DNA of 64,000 nt. Origin: Lota lota. Taxonomy: Eukaryota; Chordata; Actinopteri; Gadiformes; Lotidae. Positions 11,513 through 64,000 of the stretch are shown in pieces. The translations under genes were made by a program, and so were the position numbers. The stretch lies in assembly GCA_026745465.1 (NCBI GenBank), contig JACYXH010000359.1:1489556-1553555 (forward strand), read 5' to 3'. How positions within the stretch are numbered: the stretch's first letter is position 1; each line of letters begins with the position of its first letter. Below the pieces are notes generated by a model that was not told the DNA's origin, ran no database searches, and worked only from the letters and a program-made list of their open reading frames with translations.

Positions 11513-12575
11513 CTATTTGTTCTCTGGCCGAATGTCTGACACCGTTTTTCCGTGGTCAGTCCGTCAATGTCTGGCTTTAGGTCTTGTGCTGTAGCGATCC
11601 GTAAAACAGCGTGGAGGTTCTCATTGGTGATGCGTGATCAGTGCTTCGTCTTGTTTAGATTCATTATTGAAAACATCTGTTCGCACAGGTAGGTGCTCCC
11701 AAACATGGACAGAACACTGTCCATGTTGTCCACTGTCCATGTTGACAGTTGTCCACTGTCCACTGTCCATGAAGTCGGAGCTGTGGCATCAAAGCAGGGG
11801 GCAGTAGACGGTAAAAGTCCTCGATTGCAGCATCCTGGAACTTTGCTCTCAGGCCACTATTGCTTTGAAGCTCTATTAACTCTATCTGAAGGAGATGGGG
11901 CGCACTGCCGACGTCGGCGGTGAAAGGATTGGCAAAGATGGCAAAGCCTGAGCGCTGTGTTCTAAAGTCAGAGAAGCGCCGATCAAATTCATTAATTAAC
12001 CGGTTCACTTTGGTAGCCAACCGAGTGCATGAAAAAGCACCGGGAACTGAGGCTGAGATGCTCTGACAGACAGGAAAGTGGGCAAGATTGTCCTGTTCCA
12101 GTTGGGACTTCCATAGGTGCAGTTTACGCTGGAAAGCTGTGATCATGTCGGACATCTGCGTGATGACTTGTTTGCGTCCCTGCAGCCTCTGATTCAGTTG
12201 GGCGAGATGGTCCGTTATCACACAACATAGCAAAATCACACAGCCAGTTTGGATCCGACACTTTTTACTTTGCATGAAAATAGCAATTTCTTCCCTAAGC
12301 TCAAAGAATCGTTTGAGGACCACGCTCCTACTCGGCCACCTTACTTCTGTATGGTACGGCACATCTCCATGCTCTGACCCCACGTCCTTCAAAAACAGCT
12401 GGAACTGGCGGTGATTCAGGCCACACGCCCGAATGAAGTTTACTGTTTTAATGACCGTGGTCATTATATCATCCAGTTCCAGAACCTTTCCACAGAGCTT
12501 CTTGGTGGACAATACAATGATAAGTTATCAGAGGTGTGTGGCAGTTATGTTTTTGCATTTTCTCCTTCACTAGTC
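11513..12575 (-). pseudogene. hAT-1 transposase, C-terminal part
   Basis: The minus strand reads from about 12575 ([20 protein letters not shown], then [14 protein letters not shown]) through a long hAT transposase frame ([20 protein letters not shown]) to the dimerisation region at 11690-11513 ([18 protein letters not shown]). It resembles vertebrate GTF2IRD2/ZBED-type hAT transposases. A small tandem repeat of TCCACTGTCCATG at 11718-11772 shifts the frame just before the dimerisation motif, and an in-frame TGA follows the KTKH. The hAT sequence stops at 12579 where an LTR begins, so the upstream catalytic half is missing here. Confidence 0.85.
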
Positions 12576-12579
12576 CAAC

Positions 12580-12744
12580 TGTTACGACACCCTCTGCCTC
12601 CACCTAGCTGCGCCGGCTGCCACTACACCATGTGCTTTTGTTTACATTCCTGTCACCAATTTACCACGTGCACTCCGCTCTCCACTCCTGTCATCAATCT
12701 ACAATCAACGCACCCTACTTCTTCCCCGTTCAACAAGCAGCCGG
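12580..12744 (+). repeat. Gypsy LTR fragment, left part (split by Ginger-like element)
   Basis: Begins TGTTACGACACCCTC right after hAT-1 coding sequence and resembles the LTRs at 28499-29007 and 40355-40871 (shared ACACCATGTGCTTTTGTTTA with 28560s). It continues at 21653 on the other side of the Ginger-like element. The last four bases (CCGG) are the Ginger target duplication. Confidence 0.75.
12741..12744. other. Ginger-like target-site duplication, left
   Basis: CCGG directly before TGTTACACCG; the same CCGG follows the right end at 21653-21656. Confidence 0.85.
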
Positions 12745-13630
12745 TGTTACACCGTATTCTGTGACCCACCGTATTGTGACCCCAGGGGTCGCTGTTGCAC
12801 ATTTTCTGCAACATGCACGAGTTTGAAGGCATAAAGTCGTTCATGTGCGTAAACATGCACGAGCTTCAAAGTAAACTTCGTATCGTCATCGCGCACTCGG
12901 GATGGGTTAGTTCGTTTTGTAAAGCCCGTTGAGTGGATAAAGCAAAAAGGTTGATTTGGCTCTGTGGTGGCACGATGATGACGGGTCCTTCTTTCTTGAC
13001 ACAAACGTGAATATAGAAACGGTGTTAGTCAATTCTAAACAGCATTTTACACAGTAGCCTATAGTAGGAAACACTCAAAGGTAAATCAACGTAATTAAAC
13101 ACTGATTGTTGCTTCTTATGTGGAAGAAGCAACGTTGGTGGATCGTAGTAAACGCCCCGTCCATAGTATGTGATTGTAAAATGATAATCAAAGCAAATGT
13201 ATTTATAAAGCACATTTAATTACAAGGGGATGGGGGAGAGATGTTTCTTCATTACGAGACCCTCTCTAATTGCTCAAACTGTGGTTGTTTTTGTTATAAT
13301 GCCCACCGTTTTTTGATTACTGCAGTTTATGAAATAAACTTTGAACTAATGCCTGTATGGGCGTGATGTGTGCGTGATTGCAGTGACTTGGGTGGATTTG
13401 CAGCGTAATGGTGATTTTAGTGACCTAAGAGCACAATTTTTTAAAAGCCGACAGTATTGCGCCCTGAGTATGGTGGCCACTAAAGAGGCAGTAGCCTATA
13501 GTTCCAGTGGAAGCAGGACGAAGCACCCGACAGCAACCTGTTTTTCATTTGTCATCCTGTATAATTATTCATGTCTGCGATCCTCACAGAGTCCACACGC
13601 AACAGGAAACAATCCACGGTGGGTCACAAT
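12745..13630. repeat. Left long terminal inverted repeat
   Basis: Reverse complement of roughly 20760-21652, with scattered differences. The outermost part carries two near-copies of CCGTATTCTGTGACCC; the right end has three or more. No protein-coding signal beyond chance frames. Confidence 0.85.
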
Positions 13631-14460
13631 CCATGATAGCTGGCCGTCGTATTCTGTGACCCCACCGTAAATGTGATTTTATTTTACTTAAACCCCAACC
13701 AAATGGCTTCAGGTCATTTGGCATCCTCATATCTGTATGTGTACAAAATTATTCATGTCTGTGATCATCACATAGTCGACACGCAACAGGAAACCATCCA
13801 CGGTAGGTCACAATCCATGATAGCTGGCCGTCGTATTCTGTGACCCCAATGTAAATGCGATTTTATTTTACTTAAACCCCAACCAAATGTGTTCAGGTCA
13901 TTTGGCATCCTCATATCTGTATGTGTACAAAATTATTCATGTCTGTGATCATCACAGAGTCCACACGCAACAGGAAACCATCCACGGTGGGTCACAATCC
14001 ATGATAGCTGGCCGTCGTATTCTGTGACCCCACTGTAAATGCGAAAAACATGTAGTTAAACCCCAACCAAATGTGTTCAGGTCATTTGGCATCCTCATAT
14101 CTGTATGTGTACAAAATTATTCATGTCTGTGATCATCACAGAGTCCACACGCAACAGGAGACCATCCACAGTGGGTCACAATCCATGATAGCAGGCCGTC
14201 GTATTCTGTGACCCCAATGTAAATGCGAAAAACTTGTAGTTAAACCCCAACCAAATGTGTTCAGGTCATTTGGCATCCTCATATCTGTATGTGTACAAAA
14301 TTATTCATGTCTGTGATCATCACAGAGTCCACACGCAACAGGAAACCATCCACGGTAGGTCACAATCCATGATAGCTGGCCGTCGTATTCTGTGACCCCA
14401 ATGTAAATGCGAAAAACATGTAGTTAAACCCCAACCAAATGTGTTCAGGTCATTTTATGC
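13631..14460. repeat. Left subterminal array, 184-bp unit
   Basis: About four and a half copies of a 184-bp unit: CCATGATAGC occurs at 13631, 13815, 13999 and 14183 (the last with one change), and again at 14367. Units 3 onward replace GATTTTATTTTACTTAAACC with a GAAAAACATGTAGTTAAACC form. Each unit contains CGTCGTATTCTGTGACCCC, nearly the terminal inverted repeat motif, and the palindrome-like TGATCATCACA. Confidence 0.95.
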
Positions 14461-14529
14461 ATCCATTTTATGACTCTTTTTTTTAAACAAATTTTTATTC
14501 AAGTGTTCATACAATTAACATTAACATTT

Positions 14530-15088
14530 TTAAGACTCTTGAGCCTGGGGGCATGCAGGACAGCTGTACAGATGATCTCGGTCTGGTCTCCCAACACAAC
14601 CCTCGTGGTACCACCTCGCACAGTGGTCACACTGGACCTGAAACACAACAATTTCCCTTAGTATGAATAAAGTACACTGATATATGTCTTATCTTAAACC
14701 GAGGTCATGTTAAATGTGACAAAGGTTCTGTGTAAATATCTATGTGAAACATGTGTCTTCTCCAGTACCAGACAAGTCGGCAAGAGCAGGACAACACCAT
14801 GGTTCATTAGTATTTTGTTAATTGAATACATGTGTGCATGTCAACAACACATGGTTTAATGAATATATCACAATCCATTGTTACATTTATCACTGCTTTT
14901 TAACAACAACCGAGCCAACAACTCAGGCTAGACTCGATGAGCTCTAAATGAGCAAAGACACTAGAAAACCATGGTGTTATTTTTCAACAAATAACTTACC
15001 CAGTCCGTGGTAACAGGTCTGTCTTGAGACCCTCCTTCTCGCTGTTCTTCTCCCTCTCCACAGCTGTGACACAGCTCACTAAGATCAT
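14530..15088 (-). pseudogene. Exons 15-16: C-terminal PHD finger
   Basis: Exon 15 supplies CHSCGEG and exon 16 supplies CDHCARWYHEGC and YSCPAC, giving the C4-H-C3 ligand order of a PHD finger with the usual Trp before the His. The intron splits the domain between zinc ligands 2 and 3. Stop TAA at 14530-14532. PHD fingers often bind histone H3 tails, so a chromatin-targeting role is a reasonable inference. Confidence 0.85.
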
Positions 15089-15381
15089 CTGGTTAACATT
15101 TGGTATTGATTATAATAATCATTTCTTCTTATTGCACACAAAATGTGGTGTCAACTGTCCACTGACTTCAAAGATGTCAATGCATCTATAAGACCTTTCA
15201 CTGCACTACACTCTGTACAATGTCATTTACAGCTATCCTTGTGAAAATATACCATGAGTGATACATAGTCACTTTCTACACTTCATTATATTAATTTCAG
15301 AATTAATAATCCACATTCTTTACGATATTTGAAATCCTCATGGTGTTAATAGAAATCAAAGTTTGAAATGTGTAAACATAC

Positions 15382-16886
15382 CAATCTCATTGAGTAGTTT
15401 GATAGCTACTTCCCTCCTGTATTGATCCACCGCCTTTGCAGAGTTTGGGAAAATAAGAGACTCCTCTGCCAGGACTTTCTCAGCATACTAAGAACATGTT
15501 TGATAAAATGAATGGTCAAACAATACTGGCGTAGTTTAACTTAACCAAAAAGCTTCAACTTGATGTCTCTGTATAGGAGTTCAAATGTTAAAAAAGAGAC
15601 CTTTTCAAAATCATCTTCATGTTTCCATAATGAAACTTGCAATGCAAAAGCTTACTTTGATGGCAAATATTCCACATGAAGTGGAATCCTTCTGTAGGCT
15701 ATGTGGTACAGTGTTGGCTGTCCACCTGGACACCGTACAGCCTCTCGCTCTCATGAATGCTGTGAAAAGTTGACAAAAAGTAACAATTGATTATGCAATT
15801 TTGACACCTTCAGCTGTTGTACACATACTCCAATGGTTAAATACCAGCATTCCCCTCAGTTCCCTGTGAAGTCTTGTTGTTACTTACCTGCATTTCCAAG
15901 CTCTTGTGTTCCAGTACTGGATACCCGTGTCTTGCTTTTATACCCCGACTACGATTCCTGCCTGACCCTTTGTATTACCATGCGGATCACCTGACCCCTG
16001 CCTGCCTCGACCAAGTCCTTTGCCTGACCCTTCCAACCAGTCTGCCTTAAGTCCTGCCACTGGGTTCACCCTGCTCCTTGTGCCTGAGTCTTTGTTACAG
16101 TAATACACTAACAGAAAAATGACAGTGGCCTACATAAGGGGACATCATACAACTGTTACCTTGTGGATTCCAGACATCTCTTCACCCTGGAGCCATCATT
16201 ACCGAGTGGATCCAGTACAAGTTTCCTCTGTTCTGAGGGGAAGATGACCTAGACAATTTTGGATAAACCCATTGTGCATGTGTCACATATGCAAATTAAA
16301 TCATGGGTGTGCCTTAGAAATTCTAATAGAAATAGATAGGGTAAGGTAATGTTTAACTTACTGTGAGTATCCAATGATTCCGCTCATTCACTACCCCCAG
16401 AATCACTCCATACAATGATGGATCACTCTTCTAAAATAACACACAATTCACCGTTTAAAAACAACCCCAATTTACAGTAAATCATCAAAGCACAATTTAT
16501 TTTGTTGAACATCACGACAAAAATACCTGTACTGTGCCTACCTTAAGAATTGCCGTCTTCCCTTGCCAAATTTGTGTTATTGCATGCGTATCAATAAAGG
16601 GTGCCTGTTTGCCCCCTTGGCAATTATGCTTGTGGACCATTTTGTGGAAGTAGGCATTGATCACCTGAGGAAAGGAAATTAATTTAAGTTAACTTAACGT
16701 GTCTTAGCTTTTGGAGATTTACTTGTTCAATATAATAAATAAAATTAAAATAAATACTTCAGCTTACCTCACTCTCGAGGTCCTGACCCGGACTTGTCCT
16801 ACTAATGTCCCAATAAAACAATTTGTAGGGTCCGATTCTGGACAGCAGAACATGGACTTTTTTGCCCTTCCAAGCGTCTGTAATAT
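15382..16886 (-). pseudogene. Exons 8-14: C48/Ulp1-type cysteine protease domain
   Basis: Exons 8-9 read WKGKKVHVLLSRIGPYKLFY and VINAYFHKMVHKHN, the N-terminal part of a Ulp1/SENP fold. Exon 10 has the catalytic His in VNERNHWILT. Exon 11 has the catalytic Asp in LVLDPLGND. Exon 13 has the oxyanion Gln and nucleophile Cys in LQKDSTSCGIFAIK. Exon 12 is only 29 nt (STGTQELGNA) and is the least certain. Exon 14 continues with a helical tail (YAEKVLAEESLIFPN). The full H-D-Q-C set is in order with no stop in these exons. C48 proteases remove SUMO-like modifiers; a role in transposition is inference. Confidence 0.82.
15917..16105. other. Intron 11 with LTR-like CCTGCCTGACC sequence
   Basis: The intron between exons 11 and 12 contains repeated CCTGACCCTT/CTGCCTG phrases like the 3' halves of fish gypsy LTRs (compare 28850-28930). 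It may be an inserted LTR fragment that the transposon's splicing removes. Family call is tentative. Confidence 0.4.
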
Positions 16887-17054
16887 CTAACATGAGGATA
16901 AAAGAAATTATCAATATTATTATTCTATCGGTTCAATATCTTCTCTCATGATCAGCCGTTTCATTTGAGTTACCTTAACTTTTAAGGTTGAACATTCACA
17001 GAAAACTGAGCAATATCACAGTGAGAATCATAGGGTTACATACATTTCTCTGAA

Positions 17055-17330
17055 GTGGAGGAGGTAGCAGCAGGTGGAGTGGAAGTAGCAGCAGCTGGAA
17101 TGGAGGTAGCAGCAGGTGGCGTGGAGGTAGCAGCAGGTGGCGTGGAGGTAGCAGCAGGTGGCGTGGAGGTAGCAGCAGGTGGCGTGGAGGTAGCAGCAGG
17201 TGGAGTGGCGGTGGCAGCAGGTAGCAGCAGGTGGCGTGGAGGTAGCAGCAGGTGGCGTGGAGGTAGCAGCAGGTGGCATGGAGGTAGCAGCAGATGGAGT
17301 GGCGGTGGCAGCAGGTGGAGTGGAGGTGAT
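17055..17330 (-). repeat. 21-bp coding minisatellite in exon 7
   Basis: About 13 copies of GGTGGCGTGGAGGTAGCAGCA (plus strand, given here as its 21-base unit in shortened form: GGTGGCGTGGAGGTAGCAGC then A). On the minus strand each unit encodes seven residues (STPPAAT). A partial 10-bp copy near 17220 shifts the frame, so downstream units read as His/Cys-rich nonsense. Confidence 0.9.
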
Positions 17331-18044
17331 GGTAGAGACTGGGGGACATCCTCTCAACCGCCGAGGTATTCTCGGGGTCTCTTGGTGGTGTAGCTTCAGG
17401 TGATCAGTGTTGACCTTGTGGATAGATTTTCCTGAACTATCCACAAGGTCAACACTTTTACCTTCAATGTTCGCTACCCTGAATGGTCCAAGGAACTCCG
17501 GATCCATCTTTCCCCCTTTCCATTGCTGGCTGCGAACGTCCTTCCTCCACACCATGTCCCCCACGTGAAGGCTCTGGCTCTTTGGTCTGAATTCCAGTCT
17601 CCCTCTGGTTCTTTCCTGAACTTTCTCCACATTGTGCTGGACAATGGTCATGATCTTGTCCTATCGCTCGATGTCCATCGCCACCTCCTCTTCAAGGTAC
17701 TGGTCCTCAAAGGACCCATCAACCTGTGAAAAAATAAAACAGTTATTTAACTTTATTACAGTTCATAAGTATGTAAGTAGTGATTCAATACTTGTTCTAA
17801 ATAGTTTTTTTAATAACAAGAGAAAATATGTAGAAATTCCAGCTAACCTCATAGTTCTCCTGCACCTGAGATGGATACCTTGCTTCCCTCCCTAACATCA
17901 GGTAAAACGGAGAGAAGCGTGTTGTGAGCTGCTGTTTGGTGCGCAAACCAAACATAACTGGGTCCAGGTATCCATCCCATGTGTTCGGCCTTTCTCCGGT
18001 AAGCTTCCTCAGCGCTCTAGACAGTGATTTAAAAAAGTAGAATG

Positions 18045-18047
<3 letters not shown>

Positions 18048-18103
<56 letters not shown>
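18048..18103. repeat. (TA)n microsatellite in intron 5
   Basis: About 28 TA units in the intron between exons 5 and 6. Confidence 0.95.
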
Positions 18104-18107
<4 letters not shown>

Positions 18108-19604
18108 TTCTATTTAACATTTACAATTTTAGTATGTTAAATGCTGTTAAAAGGCATCTGTTAACCTCTGTATGGTGCCATTCAACCTCTCCACCAACCC
18201 ATTGGTCTGGGGGTTGGTATGGGGCACAGAGACTCCTTCTGATCTCCAATATTTGGCACACTTCGGTGTTGATCTGAATGAATGGTGCAGAGAACTATTT
18301 AACCCCACTGTTACATTGAATAAATAAAAAGCTGTCATTTTAAATGACTACTAATGTCCAAGTTAAAAGTTCAAACAAATACGTACTTTGTTGACAAATT
18401 CCTTTCCTTGATCCGTGAGGATTCTTTGTGGCACTTCAAATTGATACACACATTTCAATATGCACTGTGTAACCTCTGCTGCGGATTTACATTGGATGGC
18501 ATAGGCCTGTGACCATCTGGTACAGTAGTCGACCATCACACAGATGTACTGGTTTCCCTTGTCTGTCATGACCAGCTTGCCAACTAGGTCCATGCCTACA
18601 AGTTCAAATGGAACTTTAGTCTGTTTGAAAACAAAGACAAAAAGACGACACAATTACTATGTTATTCACACATTAAATATGTTGGAAATATGGTGAATGC
18701 TCCTCCCATCTACTATAAAAAGGCACTGTGATTAAAACACACAAAAATGGAATGTTTACCTTTATTGGTTTATAATCCGTGCCAACCTTGAGGTCATGTC
18801 GGTTTTGCTGACACAGTGCATTGTGTGACCTTTTGAAGATATTTTCATGAGATTTAACGTTTTTTTTTCCTCACAAGTGCGGAATCAAGTAGCAAGGTTA
18901 AATATGAAAGCTAAAACATACCCAATTATCAATGTCGGCTGACATGCCAGGCCAGTAGAACCTTCGAGAAATCACGTTCCTAGTCCGAATTTGGCCGCAG
19001 TGTGCGCCAATGTCACTGGTGTGAAATTCTTCAAATAATGAGTCGGCCGCGGCCGCCCCACAGACAACTTTCACTCGATCCTCTTTGTCAGATCCCTTAT
19101 GTCTGACATAAAACAAGTCACCATCTGAAGATAGGATAGCAATTATTGAGAGCCCTTTAAGCCTTGTCTAATTTGGCCTCTCTTACCATGAATTGCAATG
19201 CTAACATAACAGTTACGTAGGCTAATATGCAGTATTTGCTGAAAATTTTGTGCATTATTGTTAAATTATGTATTTTATGGATTAAAAATGTAGTTTAGCC
19301 CTACCATCGATGCAGTACTTTGCAGCTCGTCGCCGAATAGTGTAACGCTGTTTTTTATCAGTCTCTTTAGGAAACTCTCCTTTGATGAGGAACTCCCTTA
19401 ACTCGTCAAACATTTGTTTGTCCATAATGCAATGTCAAAAGAAAGTATGTAGACTACAGAAACTGAATGCTCAGTAGGTGTATGTTATCTGTTCGTTACC
19501 TATGGTCGTTTTGTCTGTGCTAAGAGACTTTTTAAATGCGCAATTTAAAATTGGACCAATCAGACACGTCAAAGGTCATCCTAATTTACATAATGTAGAC
19601 AGGT

Positions 19605-20760
19605 GGGGGTCACAGAATACGACGGCCAGCTATCATGGATTGTGACCCACTGTGGATGGTCTCCTGTTGCGTGTGGACTCTGTGATGATCACAGACATGA
19701 ATAATTTTGTACACATACAGATATGAGGATGCCAAATGACCTGAACACATTTGGTTGGGGTTTAAGTAAAATAAAATCGCATTTACATTGGGGTCACAGA
19801 ATACGACGGCCAGCTATCATGGATTGTGACCCACTGTGGATGGTCTCCTGTTGCGTGTGGACTCTGTGATGATCACAGACATGAATAATTTTGTACACAT
19901 ACAGATATGAGGATGCCAAATGACCTGAACACATTTGGTTGGGGTTTAAGTAAAATAAAATCCCATTTACATTGGGGTCACAGAATACGACGGCCAGCTA
20001 TCATGGATTGTGACCCACTGTGGATGGTCTCCTGTTGCGTGTGGACTCTGTGATGATCACAGACATGAATTATTTTGTACACATACAGATATGAGGATGC
20101 CAAATGACCTGAACACATTTGGTTGGGGTTTAAGTAAAATAAAATCCCATTTACATTGGGGTCACAGAATACGACGGCCAGCTATCATGGATTGTGACCC
20201 ACTGTGGATGGTCTCCTGTTGCGTGTGGACTCTGTGATGATCACAGACATGAATAATTTTGTACACATACAGATATGAGGATGCCAAATGACCTGAACAC
20301 ATTTGGTTGGGGTTTAAGTCAAATAAAATCGCATTTACATTGGGGTCACAGAATACGACGGCCAGCTATCATGGATTGTGACCCACTGTGGATGGTCTCT
20401 TGTTGCGTGTGGACTCTGTGATGATCACAGACATGAATAATTTTGTACACATACAGATATGAGGATGCCAAATGACCTGAACACATTTGGTTGGGGTTTA
20501 AGTAAAATAAAATCCCATTTACATTGGGGTCACAGAATACGACGGCCAGCTATCATGGATTGTGACCTACCGTGGATGGTCTCCTGTTGCGTGTGGACTC
20601 TGTGATGATCACAGACATGAATAATTTTGTACACATACAGATATGAGGATGCCAAATGACCTGAACACATTTGGTTGGGGTTTAAGTAAAATAAAATCGC
20701 ATTTACGGTGGGGTCACAGAATACGACGGCCAGCTATCATGGATTGTGACCCACCGTGGA
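19605..20760. repeat. Right subterminal array, 184-bp unit
   Basis: About six and a half copies, inverted relative to the left array. TCATGGATTGTGACC occurs at 19633, 19817, 20001, 20185, 20369, 20553 and 20737, exactly 184 bp apart. Each unit carries GGGTCACAGAATACGACGG, close to the element end GGGTCACAGAATACGGTG. Confidence 0.95.
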
Positions 20761-21652
20761 TTGTTTCCTGTTGCGTGTGGACTCTGTGAGGATTGCAGAC
20801 ATGAATAATTATACAGGATGACAAAAGAGAAACAGGTTGCTGTCGGGTGCTTCGTCCCGCCGTGCTTCCACTGGAACTATAGGCTACTGCCTCTTCAGTG
20901 GCCACCATACTCAGGGCGCAATACTGTCGGCTTTTTAAAAATTGTGCTCTTAGGTCACTAAAATCACCCTTACGCTGCAAATCCACCCAAGTCACTGCAA
21001 TCACGCACACTTCACGCCCATACAGGCATTAGTTCATAGTTTATTTCAGAAACTGCAGTAATCAAAAAACGGTGGGCATTATAACAAAAACAACCACAGC
21101 AATCAGAGAGGGGCTCGTAATGAAGAAAGATCTCTCCCCCATCCCCTTGTAATTGAATGTGCTTTATAAATACATTTGATTTGATTAGCATTTTACAGAC
21201 ACATACTATGGATGGGGCGTTTACTACGATCCACCAACGTTGCTTCTTTCCCCATAAGAAGCAACAATCAGTGTTTAATTACGTTGATTTACCTTTGAGT
21301 ATTTCCTACTATAGGCTACTGTGTAAAACGCTGTTTAGAATTGACCAACACCGTTTCTATATTCACGTTTGCATCAAGAAAGAAGGACCCGTCATCATCG
21401 TGCCACCACAGAGCCAAATCAACCTCTTTGCTTTATCCACTCAACGGGCTTTACAAAACGAACTAACCCATCCCGAGTAAGCGATGACGATACGATGTTT
21501 ACTTTTAAGCTCGTGCATGTTTCCGCACATGAACGACTTTTTGCCTTCAAACTCGTGCATGTTGCGGAAAATGTGCAACAGCGACCCCTGGGGTCACAGA
21601 ATACGGTGGGTCACAGAATAGAATACGGTGGGTCACAGAATACGGTGTAACA
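20761..21652. repeat. Right long terminal inverted repeat
   Basis: Inverted copy of 12745-13630. Its outer 70 bases contain GGGTCACAGAATACGG-like sequence three times, one more than the left end, then close with GTGTAACA before the CCGG duplication. Confidence 0.85.
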
Positions 21653-21794
21653 CCGGCGCCAGTTCGTTGTATACACTCTACGTGTTAGTACCTCGTTCCA
21701 GCGTATTGAATTCCTGTCTTCCCTTCTCCTCGCTTGCTCCTAACCTTGCCTCTCCTTGTGCCCAGCTCTTCCCCGGATCCTCGCCTGTCTACCC
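21653..21794 (+). repeat. Gypsy LTR fragment, right part
   Basis: Continuation of the LTR at 12580-12744 (GCCAGTTCGTTGTATACAC, then Pro-rich CCTGTCTTCCC phrases). It lacks the AATAAA and ACA end seen in the complete copy at 28499-29007, so it is truncated where the hAT-2 end begins. Confidence 0.7.
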
Positions 21795-26649: not shown

Positions 26650-27218
26650 TCAGGGAACTTCTAGTTGATTGACAGATTTCCCATGTCTCTGTGTGCTATG
26701 GTGCTGTTGTGTTGATCTGCAACACGTTTTGTAATGGTTCCATTTCTTACATGTGTGACACTGTTGACCATGTGCTGGGCAATTTTCTCTCTTGGCTGCG
26801 TGGCTACCTCCACAATTGTTAAAATTTGTGATAGGCTGTGCATTCCTCTCTGACTGTGATGTTAGTCTTGTATCAAATCTCTGCGTCCTTGTAAATCTGT
26901 GCTGTACAGCGTTTGAGGACTGCAAATCTCCCGAAATTTCCTCTTCAGACATATTGGGTCTTCTTTTGACTCGGCCGGCGTGATGACGCCTCCGTCCCAG
27001 GGAGCTCTCACCTCCGTCGCGTATACAAATGACCTCTCTCGTTCAATGGCTTCCGATCCTGCTAGATTGAGGAGAATATATGCCTGTGTGCGGGCTGGCT
27101 TGTCAAAGTGTGCCGCCGCAATGAAAATGTCGTACTCTTGTTCGAACACACGCCAGTTTTCTGCGACGTTTCGATCAAAGAGTACAGGTTCGAGTCTGCG
27201 AAATCCGTCAGCCATCAC
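26650..27218 (-). pseudogene. Ty3/gypsy element 2 gag
   Basis: The N-terminal frame (27218-26862) starts MMADGFRRLEPVLFDRNVAE and has the gag core WRVFEQEYDIFIAA. The second frame (26952-26650) carries a nucleocapsid with two Cys/His clusters (NCGGSHAAKRENCP and CHTCKKWNHYKTCC). The two frames overlap, so a frameshift lies near 26870-26950. Start chosen as first ATG after the primer-binding site. Confidence 0.8.
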
Positions 27219-27352
27219 GATGGTGCACGTGGTGCTAGTGCTAGCACGCGGCGTTAGCTTGTTAGGTACGTAACGTTGGGTGTCCTCGCTCGATCGGTGA
27301 GTTGATCTTCGTACTCATTTTCAAGACTCGTGTAGTCCATTATGTCCGTGTT

Positions 27353-27366
27353 CACTTCTGACACCA
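27353..27366 (-). other. Primer-binding site, tRNA-Leu-like
   Basis: Minus strand TGGTGTCAGAAGTG directly abuts the 5' LTR. Same primer type as the element at 2081-2095. Confidence 0.75.
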
Positions 27367-27547
27367 TGTTGAATGACCTGACACGGAGGAAATACTTTGT
27401 AACAGTATTACTTTTATTTAACATAATGGTAAGTCGTAGACCAACATTGTGTGACTAACAGAATACCTAGAGGGGCGCACCCACCACCGCGCATGCTCAG
27501 TAGCCAGTACGGTGGCTGCCATGGGAGCACATTGCGAATGCTCTGCA
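27367..27547 (-). repeat. 5' LTR of Ty3/gypsy element 2
   Basis: 181 bp, TGTTGAATGACC at the left edge and GCTCTGCA at the right edge. It interrupts hAT-1 transposase sequence, which resumes at 27548. Copied at 30441-30621. Confidence 0.85.
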
Positions 27548-27802
27548 GACAATTTGATGTTTTTCTTGGAGGCAACATTTAGCTGGGCTGGTGTCAAAAT
27601 GCAGACGTAAATTGTATTCCTTCATCGCTGACACTGCCTCGTAGCACAGAAGACATACCGTTTTTTCTACTTGAAGCACAAACACTTTCCCATCTTTCAT
27701 AAAATTGCCTTCCCTCTGAATTTTGTTTTCTCTTGTTGGACATTTTGGGATTATTCGTAGATCTTTTTCAACTGTTATAGTTAAACTTCGATATGGAAAC
27801 AC
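27548..27802 (-). pseudogene. hAT-1 transposase, N-terminal fragment with BED-like finger
   Basis: The minus-strand frame reads KVFVLQVEKTVCLLCYEA and KEYNLRLHFDTSPAK, the zinc-finger start of the same GTF2IRD2/ZBED-type transposase whose C-terminus is at 11513-12575. The Cys pair is intact but the second His of the finger seems to be replaced (TSPAK for T-K-H). Upstream basic residues KCPTRENKIQREG follow the start codon. Cut by the LTR at 27547. Confidence 0.75.
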
Positions 27803-28009
27803 TGAAAGCAGGATGTCATAATTTCGCGGGTCGCAAAATCGAAATGCATTGTGGGAGATGTAGTCACTGGGAGCATGGTCACTGTTCGCTGTAAAGCCGC
27901 ATTGACTTTTATGTTAAGACATGCCTTTTAAGCTCTCGCGGGCCACATAAAATGACATGGCGGGCCGGATTCGGCAGGCGGGCCTAGTGTTAACACATGT
28001 GCTCTAAAC

Positions 28010-28385
28010 CATCCTCAGCAACCTTTCAATATCAAAAGAGCAATTTTTGGTCCCTCTCCCACCAAATAAAATTAATCTAGAGCCACAAAACCAATTTGAC
28101 CCCTAAAATGAAGATAACAGCATATAATGTTTGATATATAGTTATACTATGTGTAAAACAACTAATAGCCTATAGTTTGTTGCATTTATGAAATTTGTAG
28201 TTGTAGGATGTGACGTTTATTTTGGTTGACAAAATATTGACACTTTATTTTGTTATTTTGGTGTCACAGCATCACCTTGATCTCCAAAATACGAGGTGTC
28301 CTGAAAGAAAAAAGAAAAATAGCCATTATTTAGTTTTTTCAAAGCTACTGGGAGCCACTGCAGAGCCACGGGTTGCTGACCCCTG
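28010..28385. mobile_element. hAT MITE
   Basis: 376 bp with no coding capacity. The right end reads GGTTGCTGACCCCTG and the left end CATCCTCAGCAACC, an imperfect inverted pair. It is flanked by a perfect 8-bp duplication CTCTAAAC at 28002-28009 and 28386-28393. The left 8-mer is also the right target duplication of hAT-1. The copy at 31085-31459 comes from the tandem duplication. Confidence 0.75.
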
Positions 28386-28498
28386 CTCTAAACACATAGG
28401 ATATTTTGATAATTCTTCGGGTCACGTTAGAATGTCTTGGACAAGGAGGACTTCAGTGGGAAACCTGCACAAGTGTCTGCAGTGACGGAGCAGCAGCC

Positions 28499-29007
28499 AT
28501 GGTATCACACCTTCGCCCCTTTCCGTCCAATTCCGCCATCTAGTGGCACCCAACCTCACTACACCATGTGCTTTTGTTTACTTCCCGTCAATTAACCACC
28601 ACGTGCACTCCCTCTGTCCACACACTCCTGCCGGCAATCAGACCAATCACCCTCCACAGTATTTTAGCACTGGCTCCCCACAGAGCCTCTCATGGTAACT
28701 ACGTCCCCGCGTTTTAGACTCTCCAGTTTTCGGGTTCCACTCCCGTTCCTGTTCCTGCTCCCCGTTCTCTTTCTGTTACGGGTTCCGCTCCCGTTCCTGT
28801 TCCTGCTCCCGTTCCTGTTCCTGTTCTTGCTCCCGTTCCTGTTGCCTACGTCCCTTTGCCTGCCTGACTCCCCGCCTGCCTACTGCCTGCTGGACTACTC
28901 GCCTGCCTTGCCCTTGCCTGTACCTGAGTACCAAATAAATCCCTTTTCAACCCGCTCCCTTCTCGTCTCCGTGTCTTGCGTTTGGGTCCTAGTTCCGTAA
29001 CCCTAAC
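28499..29007 (+). repeat. Gypsy-type LTR upstream of gag
   Basis: About 509 bp, from TGGTATCACACCTTCG to CCGTAACCCTAACA. Contains a TATTTTAGCACTGGC stretch, repeated CCGTTCCTGTTCCTGCTC, CCTGCCTG phrases and AATAAA near 28935. Same family as the solo LTR at 40355-40871 (minus) and the split LTR at 12580/21653. Start is uncertain by a few bases. Confidence 0.65.
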
Positions 29008-29024
29008 AGTACGAACTAGCCCAG

Positions 29025-29414
29025 ATGGACCCAGCAGACACGGATTCCATACGCCAGGCTTATTCCCGCCTAGGAATACCGTACATTTCGGTTTCCTCTG
29101 CCGACCAGACTCGGACGGCGATCCTTTCCTCCCTTCGAGAGCTTACGTCAGCTATCCATGGGAAGCTAATCCCGGTTCCAGCCCCCGCTGCAGCCGCAGT
29201 CTCGTGGCCACCAACCCCCGCTGCAGCCGCAGTCTCGTGGCCACCAACCCCCGCTGCAGCCGCAGTCTCGTGGCCACCAACCCCCGCTGCAGCCGCAGTC
29301 TCGTGGCCACCAACCCCCGCTGCACCAGCAGTCTCGTGGCCACCAGCCCCGCTGCAACCGTGGTCTTCTGTCTCCAAGTCCATGCAGCCGTGGTCTCCTG
29401 TTTCCAAGAACTAA
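29025..29414 (+). pseudogene. Gypsy-type gag N-terminus, copy 1, truncated
   Basis: ATG lies 17 bp after the LTR. The frame opens [20 protein letters not shown], typical of the coiled gag start in fish gypsy elements, then enters a minisatellite whose 33-bp unit encodes [11 protein letters not shown] four to five times. The duplication junction at 29414 ends the frame. No capsid or zinc knuckle is present. Confidence 0.65.
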
Positions 29415-32400
29415 CACAATGTAGAACTGTAGTGCATATGGCTGGCCTGCTAGGTGACATGACAGGACAACTGAACCCCATATGCCACCAAGTTGGTGAT
29501 TCTTGAACAGTCTATTTCTTCCCTGTTCTTCACACGTTTGAATGTATCATGTGACATGACGTTGCATTTTGCCCCTGTATTGACTTTCATTTTGATGGGC
29601 TTGCCATTGACGTGGACAGTGGTGAGCTTCACTTTTCTCCGTAGCATGAGAGTATACTGTGTCAATGTTCTCCAGCGTTATTCCATCCACATCCACACAA
29701 TCATCATCGCAACCACTCGTGGCTCAGGCAACTTCTAGTTGATTGACAGATTTCCCATGTCTCTGTGTGCTATGGTGCTGTTGTGTTGATCTGCAACACG
29801 TTTTGTAATGGTTCCATTTCTTACATGTGTGACACTGTTGACCATATGCTGGGCAATTTTCTCTCTTGGCTGCGTGGCTACCTCCACAATTGTTAAAATT
29901 TGTGATAGGCTGTGCATTCCTCTCTGACTGTGATGTTAGTCTTGTATCAAATCTCTGCGTCCTTGCAAATCTGTACTGTACAGCGTTTGAGGACTGCAAA
30001 TCTCCCGAAATTTCCTCTTCAGACATATTGGGTCTTCTTTTGACTCGGCCGGCGTGATGACGCCTCCGTCCCAGGGAGCTCTCACCTCCGTCGCGTATAC
30101 AAATGACCTCTCTCGTTCAATGGCTTCCGATCCTGCTAGATTGAGGAGAATATATGCCTGTGTGCGGGCTGGCTTGTCAAAGTGTGCCGCCGCAATGAAA
30201 ATGTCGTACTCTTGTTCGAACACACGCCAGTTTTCTGCGACGTTTCGATCAAAGAGTACAGGTTCGAGTCTGCGAAATCCGTCAGCCATCACGATGGTGC
30301 ACGTGGTGCTAGTGCTAGCACGCGGCGTTAGCTTGTTAGGTACGTAACGTTGGGTGTCCTCGCTCGATCGGTGAGTTGATCTTCGTACTCGTTTTCAAGA
30401 CTCGTATAGTCTATTATGTCCGTGTTCACTTCTGACACCATGTTGAATGACCTGACACGGAGGAAATACTTTGTAACAGTATTACTTTTATTTAACATAA
30501 TGGTAAGTCGTAGACCAACATTGTGTGACTAACAGAATACCTAGAGGGGCGCACCCACCACCGCGCATGCTCAGTAGCCAGTACGGTGGCTGCCATGGGA
30601 GCACATTGCGAATGCTCTGCAGACAATTTGATGTTTTTCTTGGAGGCAACATTTAGCTGGGCTGGTGTCAAAATGCAGACGTAAATTGTATTCCTTAATC
30701 GCTGACACTGCCTCGTAGCACAGAAGACATACCGTTTTTTCTACTTGAAGCACAAACACTTTCCCATCTTTCATAAAATTGCCTTCCCTCTGAATTTTGT
30801 TTTCTCTTGTTGGACATTTTGGGATTATTCGTAGATCTTTTTCAACTGTTATAGTTAAACTTCGATATGGAAACACTGAAAGCAGGATGTCATAATTTCG
30901 CGGGTCGCAAAATCTAAATGCATTGTGGGAGATGTAGTCACTGGGAGCATGGTCACTGTTCGCTGTAAAGCCGCATTGACTTTTATTTTAAGACATGCCT
31001 TTTAAGCTCTCGCGGGCCACATAAAATGACATGGCGGGCCGGATTCGGCCGGCGGGCCTAGTGTTTAACACATGTGCTCTAAACCATCCTCAGCAACCTT
31101 CACTATCAAAAGAGCAATTTTTGGTCCCTCTCCCACCAAATAAAATTAATCTAGAGCCACAAAACCAATTTGACCCCTAAAATGAAGATAACAGCATATA
31201 ATGTTTGATATATAGTTATACTATGTGTAAAACAACTAATAGCCTATAGTTTGTTGCATTTATGAAATTTGTAGTTGTAGGATGTGACGTTTATTTTGGT
31301 TGACAAAATATTGACACTTTATTTTGTTATTTTGGTGTCACAGCATCACCTTGATCTCCAAAATACGAGGTGTCCTGAAAGAAAAAAGAAAAATAGCCAT
31401 TATTTAGTTTTTTCAAAGCTACTGGGAGCCACTGCAGAGCCACGGGTTGCTGACCCCTGCTCTAAACACATAGGATATTTTGATAATTCTTCGGGTCACG
31501 TTAGAATGTCTTGGACAAGGAGGACTTCAGTGGGAAACCTGCACAAGTGTCTGCAGTGACGGAGCAGCAGCCATGGTATCACACCTTCGCCCCTTTCCGT
31601 CCAATTCCGCCATCTAGTGGCACCCAACCTCACTACACCATGTGCTTTTGTTTACTTCCCGTCAATTAACCACCACGTGCACTCCCTCTGTCCACACACT
31701 CCTGCCGGCAATCAGACCAATCACCCTCCACAGTATTTTAGCACTGGCTCCCCACAGAGCCTCTCATGGTAACTACGTCCCCGCGTTTTAGACTCTCCAG
31801 TTTTCGGGTTCCACTCCCGTTCCTGTTCCTGCTCCCCGTTCTCTTTCTGTTACGGGTTCCGCTCCCGTTCCTGTTCCTGCTCCCGTTCCTGTTCCTGTTC
31901 TTGCTCCCGTTCCTGTTGCCTACGTCCCTTTGCCTGCCTGACTCCCCGCCTGCCTACTGCCTGCTGGACTACTCGCCTGCCTTGCCCTTGCCTGTACCTG
32001 AGTACCAAATAAATCCCTTTTCAACCCGCTCCCTTCTCGTCTCCGTGTCTTGCGTTTGGGTCCTAGTTCCGTAACCCTAACAGTACGAACTAGCCCAGAT
32101 GGACCCAGCAGACACGGATTCCATACGCCAGGCTTATTCCCGCCTAGGAATACCGTACATTTCGGTTTCCTCTGCCAACCAGACTCGGACGGCGATCCTT
32201 TCCTCCCTTCGAGAGCTTACGTCAGCTATCCATGGGAAGCTAATCCCGGTTCCAGCCCCCGCTGCAGCCGCAGTCTCGTGGCCACCAACCCCCGCTGCAG
32301 CCGCAGTCTCGTGGCCACCAACCCCCGCTGCAGCCGCAGTCTCGTGGCCACCAACCCCCGCTGCAGCCGCAGTCTCGTGGCCACCAACCCCCGCTGCACC

Positions 32401-32488
32401 AGCAGTCTCGTGGCCACCAGCCCCGCTGCAACCGTGGTCTTCTGTCTCCAAGTCCATGCAGCCGTGGTCTCCTGTTTCCAAGCCCCAG
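29415..32488. repeat. 3,074-bp tandem duplication, copy 2
   Basis: Second copy. Contains protease fragment 29450-29665, gag 29724-30292, LTR 30441-30621, hAT-1 N-terminal fragment 30622-30876 and hAT-1 5' end to 31076, MITE 31085-31459, gypsy LTR 31573-32081 and gag start at 32099. All breaks seen in copy 1 are shared. Confidence 0.95.
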
Positions 32489-32590
32489 CCCCAGCCCCCG
32501 CAGCCGTTCCCTCCTGTTTCCAAGCCCCAGCCCCCGCAGCCGTTCCCTCCTGTTTCCAAGCCCCAGCCCCCGCAGCCGTTGCCTCCCGCA
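32099..32590 (+). pseudogene. Gypsy-type gag N-terminus, copy 2, fused to hAT
   Basis: Same start as 29025. The [11 protein letters not shown] repeat is followed by three copies of a 36-bp unit (CCAAGCCCCAGCCCCCGCAG within it) encoding [12 protein letters not shown]. The frame then runs without a stop into the hAT-3 fragment and ends at 32899, 266 codons in all. The fused frame is a by-product of truncation and I see no sign that it is a working gene. Confidence 0.65.
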
Positions 32591-63000: not shown

Positions 63001-64000
63001 ATGTTAATGTTTTCCCACTTTCAATGGAAAAGTGTAACAAAGCTTGTGAATGGTTGTTTAGACCTTATACCAACATCAACTGGTGAAGCACCATCGTTTT
63101 TAACACAAAGAAAAAACATGTTTATGCTTAGAAACACATATTGTGTTCAAAACGTGATTCTCTCGCTCTGAAAAGCATTTTCCGTACATAGAAAAGTGGT
63201 ATTTTGCTTTTTTCCCACTTTCAATTGAAAAGTAAGCTTGTTAATGGTTGTTTAGGTCCTTATATTAACATCAAAGTGGTGAAGCACCATCGTTTTTTAA
63301 CACGAAAAACCATGTTTATGCTAAGAAACACATTGTGTTCAAAAGTGATTCTCTCGCTCTGAAAAGTATTTTCAGCATATAAAAAAAGTGGTACGTTGCT
63401 TTTTTCCAACTTTAAATTGAAATGTGTAAATAAGCTTGTTAATGATTGTTTAGACCTTATATTAACATCAAATGGTGAAGCATCATCATTTTTTACACAA
63501 AGAAAAACAGTTATGCTCAGAAACACATTGTGTTCAAAAAGTGATTCTCTCGCTCTGAAAAGCATTTTCCGTTTCTAGAAAAGTGGTATTTTGCTTTTTA
63601 ACAACTTTACATTGAAATGTGTAAATAAGCTTGTTAATGATTGTTTAGACCTTATGCCATCATCAAGTGGTGAATCACCATCGTTTTTGAGAAAAAAAAA
63701 TAATTTATGCTCAGAAACACATTGTGTTCAAAAAGTGATTCTCTCGCTCTGAAAAGCATTTTCCGCACGTAAAAAAAACCAATGTTGCTTTTTTCCCCCC
63801 ACTTTTAATTGAAATGTATAACTAAGCTTGTGATTAGTTGTTTAGGCCTTATGCCATCATCAAGTGGTGAATCACCATCGTTTTTGAGAAAAAAACATAT
63901 TTATGCTCACAAACACATTGTGTTCAAAAAGTGATTCTCTCGCTCTGAAAAGCATTTTCCGCATAAAAAAAAAGTGGTATGTTAATTTTTCCCACTTTCA
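42061..64000. repeat. Satellite array with higher-order repeats
   Basis: About 110 head-to-tail monomers of 193-198 bp, all in one orientation, AT-rich, with the conserved core GTGATTCTCTCGCTCTGA. At least five monomer classes differ in the segment after this core: CCGCATAAA, CCGTACATAG, CAGCATATAA, CCGCACGTAA and CCGTTTCTAG. The class with TATTTTCAGCATAT falls at 45090, 45869, 46067, 47041, 48590, 50140, 51109, 52659, 53817, 54788, 56359, 57935, 59291, 60249, 60830, 61805, 62782 and 63367. These gaps are about 4, 1, 5, 8, 8, 5, 8, 6, 5, 8, 8, 7, 5, 3, 5, 5 and 3 monomers. The array runs off the window end. Confidence 0.97.

Follow-up and report, generated by a model that had tools for sequence, protein, structure and literature searches.

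Ginger1 transposons, as defined in their 2010 description, insert at CCGG or CCGT targets, have TGTNR ends, and encode an integrase with YPYY, H2C2, DDE and GPY/F features that is followed by an OTU or Ulp1 protease (PMC2836005). The families reported there have terminal inverted repeats (TIRs) of 40-270 bp, 0-4 introns and lengths of about 2.6-7 kb; all of their transposases but one carry extra C-terminal domains, and a role of the Ulp1 and OTU proteases in transposition was already proposed at that time (PMC2836005). We have analysed a stretch of 64,000 nucleotides of the Lota lota genome (assembly GCA_026745465.1, contig JACYXH010000359.1, positions 1,489,556 to 1,553,555 of the forward strand), hereafter the window, and find within it an element that is very likely a degenerate copy of an autonomous Ginger1-type family of fish DNA transposons, in which a 15-exon gene would encode a single transposase of about 800 residues joining an integrase, a C48 protease and a PHD finger.

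The closest described system is Ginger1-9_HM of Hydra magnipapillata, which appears with both Ulp1 and PHD in Table 1 of Bao, Kapitonov and Jurka (2010), within the group that has CCGG targets and TGTNR ends (PMC2836005). An initial annotation of the window stressed the exact combination and order of these domains, whose novelty is not supported in view of this listing. The two elements nonetheless differ in build: Ginger1-9_HM is given as 3,758 bp long with a TIR of 120 bp and two introns, whereas the fish element is 7.5-8.9 kb long with TIRs of about 0.9-2 kb that include 184-bp arrays, and has 14 introns. In 2022 the number of autonomous Ginger1 entries in Repbase was 23 (PMC10045372), and the main text of the paper on Imagin contains no word beginning with PHD or OTU (PMC12863088).

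Ends, target sites and affiliation of the element

The window locus is a DNA transposon of the Ginger1 group, and its limits are defined by the following features.

12745..21652, minus strand (gene strand): complete Ginger1-type element, 8,908 bp (ends, target site duplication, arm comparison)
12741..12744, no strand: left target site duplication, CCGG (read directly)
21653..21656, no strand: right target site duplication, CCGG (read directly)
12745..14455, no strand: left TIR, first bases TGTTACACCG (arm-to-arm match)
19606..21652, no strand: right TIR, last bases CGGTGTAACA (arm-to-arm match)
13563..14455, no strand: 184-bp tandem array of 4.9 units within the left TIR (tandem repeat listing)
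19606..20810, no strand: 184-bp tandem array of 6.5 units within the right TIR, upstream of the gene start (tandem repeat listing)
12753..12766, plus strand: terminal motif CGTATTCTGTGACC, first of 15 (candidate transposase-binding site)

The termini read TGTTA...TAACA, in agreement with the TGTNR ends of Ginger1; the 4-bp duplication of the Ginger1 kind (CCGG or CCGT/ACGG) is present at the window copy, and CCGG also at the sister copies with readable ends. The two arms match at 94.9% over about 1.7 kb in the window; in four other full-length copies the matched stretch is about 0.93-0.98 kb long. The 184-bp array of the right arm, upstream of the gene, occurs in all five full-length copies measured, the window included; that of the left arm is listed in the window and not in the other four. 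The window contains 15 copies of the 14-base motif CGTATTCTGTGACC, where 0.01 would be expected; six are on the plus strand in the left TIR and nine on the minus strand in the right TIR, every one of them pointing inward, a pattern that suits an array of transposase-binding sites and makes these repeats candidates for that role.

Because the integrase is Gypsy-like and includes GPY/F, we have also considered whether the locus is the remnant of a Gypsy long terminal repeat (LTR) retrotransposon that kept its integrase only. This is scarcely credible, and is already contradicted by the inverted terminal repeats and the CCGG duplication, where Gypsy has direct LTRs and a reverse transcriptase; no reverse transcriptase match was found in the 10 open reading frames of the element that were scanned. 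An integrase tree of 44 rows (the window and 43 proteins chosen of 130) places the window inside a 17-row group (100/98) composed of 15 fish-named rows, one unnamed row and the window itself, and all 15 rows that bear a reverse transcriptase lie across a branch from it (100/99). One fish protein with reverse transcriptase-RNase H marks beside its integrase (P0021) was left out of this tree. Neither does the element match Ginger2/TDD, which lacks GPY/F and YPYY and has the AT-rich target RTATAY, as it has LGPF, YPYY and CCGG.

The transposase gene and its defects in the window

A search for further copies in the same genome, proposed as a check in the initial annotation, recovered integrase and C48-PHD exons together in sister copies. 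From 20 stretches fetched we took nine sister copies (L021-L029) and compared them with the window exon by exon; coverage is uneven, as L026 comprises the first exons only, L023 and L024 lack exon 10, and L025 and L028 lack exon 15. The remaining 11 stretches are a diverged subfamily copy (L032), five truncated copies (L030, L031, L033-L035) and five members of other families (L036-L040). The truncated copies were tried as carriers of the fusion gene and rejected, their matches being confined to exons 1-5; their contigs have long near-identical stretches in common, and we read them as duplicated truncated copies in what looks like a segmental duplication or unplaced repeats. The comparison gives the following gene, all of it on the minus strand.

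19305..19425, minus: exon 1, ATG and first part of the YPYY motif (sister-copy comparison)
18922..19124, minus: exon 2, remaining YPYY and first half of H2C2 (Pfam, sister copies)
18760..18829, minus: exon 3, second half of H2C2, frame change in the window copy (acceptor AAAAG; 70 nt)
18387..18620, minus: exon 4, rve with the first two catalytic D (Pfam, sister copies)
18166..18273, minus: exon 5, catalytic E, frame change in the window copy (sister copies)
17848..18016, minus: exon 6 (sister copies)
17044..17723, minus: exon 7, GPY/F as LGPF, then PPAATST-type repeat linker (sister copies)
17661..17663, minus: in-frame TAG within exon 7, private to the window copy (sense codon in 9/9 sister copies)
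16768..16886, minus: exon 8, start of the C48 region (sister copies, related proteins)
16542..16664, minus: exon 9, C48 (sister copies)
16362..16430, minus: exon 10, C48 with catalytic H (absent from L023, L024 and the partial L026)
16160..16248, minus: exon 11, C48 with catalytic D (sister copies)
15656..15761, minus: exon 12 of the family model, C48 with catalytic Q and C, AG acceptor mutated in the window copy (sister copies)
15382..15487, minus: exon 13 (sister copies)
15000..15088, minus: exon 14, first two Cys of PHD (sister copies)
14530..14637, minus: exon 15, remaining PHD and stop (Pfam, sister copies)

The predicted order is thus YPYY motif, H2C2 finger, DDE integrase, GPY/F, repeat linker, Ulp1/C48 protease and PHD finger, as first annotated, and Pfam bears this out on the window open reading frames and on the joined exons. 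The 10 separate window reading frames match H2C2 (E 1.3e-12), rve (3.2e-12) and PHD (3.2e-6), with no match to C48 among them; when the window pieces are joined, with X at the breaks, H2C2 (5e-15), rve (4e-13), Peptidase_C48 (5e-7) and PHD (3e-5) are all recovered, C48 being detected only after its short exons are joined. The joined pieces contain the C48 residues H, D, Q and C and eight PHD ligands. The integrase signature had been given as D-58-D-35-E: the D-58-D spacing holds, and the spacing of 35 is found in relatives by hand count, but in the window itself a frame break falls between the second D and the E. Both H2C2 and DDE of the window copy are interrupted in this way, and the intact set, with YPYY and GPY/F, is present at the level of the family.

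In the family gene model 14 introns separate 15 exons, and the phases agree throughout (that of exon 7 being judged by its length); as one spliced transposase with about 800 predicted residues the model is well supported. The count of 16 exons given initially has to be revised. The AG acceptor before exon 12 is lost in the window, so that a further exon near 15888-15957 is needed there for phase; the acceptor is kept in all eight sister copies that have exon 12, and since exons 11 and 12 are joined directly in these copies and in related proteins we count 15 exons and no additional one. The 16-exon GT-AG join, described as one protein with matching phases, does not translate through in the window. 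GT-AG borders do hold in the sister copies apart from a limited set of deviations: the exon 3 donor in L023 and L024, the exon 14 donor in L023, the exon 8 donor and exon 11 acceptor in L025, the exon 8 acceptor in L027, the exon 7 donor and exon 8 acceptor in L029, and the usual exon 3 acceptor in L021, which is lost.

The window copy itself is dead. Exon 3 has a private frame change in the second half of H2C2 (all nine sister copies differ, with a 2-nt change in length), and exon 5 has another before PQTNG (eight of nine sister copies are 1 nt shorter and one is 4 nt shorter). Exon 7 carries the private TAG and at 680 nt is 2 mod 3, compared with 1 mod 3 in all eight copies measured (the L029 donor is doubtful). 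These frame breaks, together with the stop codon and the lost acceptor, leave a degenerate copy of a well-supported family gene. An alternative acceptor just past the exon 7 TAG is possible in the window copy, but was rejected given the sense codon in the nine sister copies.

Exon 7 also contains a coding 21-bp repeat of the PPAATST type (window 17060-17327), and its length ranges from 439 to 859 nt among eight sister copies in steps of 3, with which the window is out of step.

The long repeat linker separates an integrase half from a C48-PHD half, and these could in principle be two adjacent genes, the more so as the model is known here from genomic sequence alone. We regard this as very improbable, as the phases match across the family exons, other fish predictions join both halves, and L021, one of four sister copies that can be joined in full, reads without a stop for 826 codons across both halves by way of an alternative exon 3 acceptor. 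The other three (L022, L027 and L029) have internal stops when joined.

Insertions and gene-less derivatives

CCGG stands beside every full-length copy that has a readable end. It is seen at both ends of the window copy, of L021, and of L023, L024 and L027, whose flanks are also those of L022; it is seen at the one readable end of L025, L028 and L029. Given their common flanks, L022, L023, L024 and L027 are counted as one insertion, and L025 and L028, which are readable at opposite ends and are both missing the same 3' part, may be one as well, giving five or six independent CCGG insertions of which three have both ends readable. Five full-length copies are 7.5-8.9 kb in length. We note that the flanking bases of L022, L023, L024 and L027 are identical at their readable ends, indicating either duplication with the surroundings or assembly duplicates.

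When the outer 556 bases of the TIR were used as the query, 511 first-look candidates were obtained, of which 40 were scored; all 40 match at 94-100%, some of them being the two ends of a single element, and there are two further short matches. Eight of these places were fetched as stretches of 2.2-3.1 kb, and no match to any gene part was found in any of them. Six contain both ends and define elements of 2.0-3.0 kb, and two (L045 and L047) contain one end only. A duplicated target is present in five of the six two-ended cases, in three of them of 4 bp (CCAC, CCGG and GGGG, by eye). These gene-less derivatives, having target duplications of their own, have moved, presumably through transposase supplied in trans. 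The six two-ended elements (L041, L042, L043, L044, L046 and L048) are covered by the TIR sequence of the window and resemble foldback elements.

A multi-exon gene with a Ginger1-like integrase might also be a domesticated host gene of the kind represented by GIN1 and GIN2, which are of Ginger1 origin, have integrases with introns, and are described as domesticated (PMC2836005). The TIRs, the target site duplication, the many copies at different sites and the private disabling mutations already contradict this explanation, which we consider extremely unlikely.

Relatives and proposed functions of the domains

A protein search found 33 relatives at E 0.001 or better, 22 of them fish-named, and a profile search found 755 proteins, with roughly 100 fish-named among the 120 matches listed. 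The closest is P0001 of Merluccius polli (80% identity over aligned columns, 61% by BLASTP). Integrase (rve and/or H2C2), C48 and PHD marks occur together in at least five fish proteins: P0006 (Triplophysa dalaica), P0007 (Oreochromis niloticus), P0013 (Danio rerio), P0020 and P0037. The same integrase and C48 are found in P0003 of Astyanax mexicanus, which is named gypsy retrotransposon integrase-like protein 1. Fish proteins such as P0006, P0007, P0013 and P0003, at 43-58% identity over aligned columns, are labelled as uncharacterized or with other gene names. With the target duplication, the termini and the sister copies, the five three-domain proteins support the original assignment of a Ginger1 DNA transposon with one integrase-C48-PHD gene.

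Among the aligned relatives, the predicted catalytic residues are retained in the integrase as well as in the protease. In an alignment of the window with 11 of the 33 relatives, and counting rows that have a letter, the integrase D, D and E are present in 12/12, 11/11 and 11/11, and the C48 H, Q and C in 12/12 and D in 11/12; the PHD ligands are kept in most aligned rows with letters. The set H, D, Q and C is the one expected of an active C48 deSUMOylase. The predicted Peptidase_C48 domain corresponds to the C-terminal OTU/Ulp1 feature of Ginger1, with a PHD finger in addition. The closest solved chain for the C48 part in PDB is Sentrin-specific protease 2 (E 8e-8), so that the transposon domain shares both a sequence relation and the H-D-Q-C set with that enzyme and with the Ulp1 peptidase family C48. 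Host deSUMOylases are not known to carry an integrase. For the PHD part the closest PDB chains are PHF2, BPTF and KDM5, all readers of methylated H3K4.

Alternatively, the C48 and PHD exons may have been captured from the host as passengers that play no part in transposition. Their role is indeed proposed from sequence, and identity to P0002 is lower in C48 (59%) and PHD (49%) than in the integrase (69%); two relatives (P0003 and P0005) have no recognisable PHD. We nevertheless consider passengers rather unlikely, in view of the residue conservation just described and of three other, more distant families in the same genome (L036, L038 and L040), in which pieces at 24-65% identity match the integrase, C48 and PHD parts and follow each other in that order. 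The 2010 families likewise have C-terminal extra domains in all transposases but one (PMC2836005). Compared with the L032 subfamily, the comparable C48 exons have 6, 9 and 17 substitutions at codon positions 1, 2 and 3 (L028 row; exons 12 and 13 unmatched), and among the position counts it is these C48 figures alone that suggest coding constraint.

Several observations weigh against a functional Ginger1 fusion transposase, and against the assignment of the locus to that group. The TIRs match over about 0.93-1.7 kb between arms (2.0 kb or more with the arrays) and the gene has 14 introns, compared with the published 40-270 bp and 0-4 introns; we read the published values as the range of known members and not as a criterion. 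The splice junctions are predicted from genomic sequence, the related proteins are predictions, P0014 and P0020 have part of the PHD in addition to the two relatives with none, and the integrase tree has no row for a Hydra Ginger1. The window copy is unable to make the whole protein, and one of the four complete sister copies is open throughout, through the alternative acceptor. Two of the gene-less copies have 5-bp duplications (CCTGC and ACCCG) and one has no recognisable duplication. Lastly, the nine sister copies have 32, 49 and 52 variable sites at codon positions 1, 2 and 3 (571-572 sites each, exon 7 left out), with no clear bias, and the integrase exons have 20, 12 and 21 substitutions at these positions against L032 (L028 row), again with no bias. 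The conservation of predicted active residues across fishes is stronger evidence than these codon-position counts.

For the single fusion transposase that we favor, the domains suggest how transposition might proceed. The N-terminal part (YPYY and H2C2) would bind the terminal motif at its inward-facing copies along the extended TIRs and pair the ends, the DDE domain would cut at the TG/CA ends and join them with a 4-bp stagger into CCGG-like targets, and GPY/F would multimerise the transposase. The C48 domain has the H-D-Q-C set and probably cleaves SUMO or a related modifier off the transposase itself, or off host factors of repair or silencing; the PHD finger probably tethers the complex to nucleosomes through histone H3, perhaps H3K4me3. 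From the conservation of the domains it is fair to infer that the element may handle SUMO and chromatin marks during transposition. A further conjecture, that the PHD finger and the CCGG preference act jointly such that the transposase reads H3K4-methylated nucleosomes, cuts CCGG with its CpG and lands in open promoters, where C48 strips SUMO from silencing factors, is quite doubtful, and a small test of flanks lends it no support: CpG observed/expected is 0.70 in the insertion flanks (1,448 bp, 14 insertions) and 0.62 around 44 CCGG sites of the window, with no clear CpG-rich bias in this small sample. CpG-island targeting was set aside on the same test.

Elsewhere in the window, an open frame of 286 codons (11667-12524) lies near the element. 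A local duplication occupies 26865-32586, where a stretch with nested tandem repeats and an open frame that looks gag-like is present twice at a distance of about 3,074 bp, and a satellite array with a 195-bp unit and about 119 copies extends from 40888 to the window end at 64000.

Beyond the 2010 description, the family adds 14 introns, TIRs of about 0.9-2 kb in which the terminal motif recurs pointing inward, and gene-less derivatives flanked by target duplications of their own. The Hydra-type integrase-SUMO protease-PHD transposase is thus very likely carried by fishes also, in elements whose gene is rich in introns and whose inverted repeats are long and arrayed, and a single vertebrate genome that has both sister copies and gene-less derivatives would provide a tractable system for asking why transposases bear SUMO-type proteases and chromatin readers.

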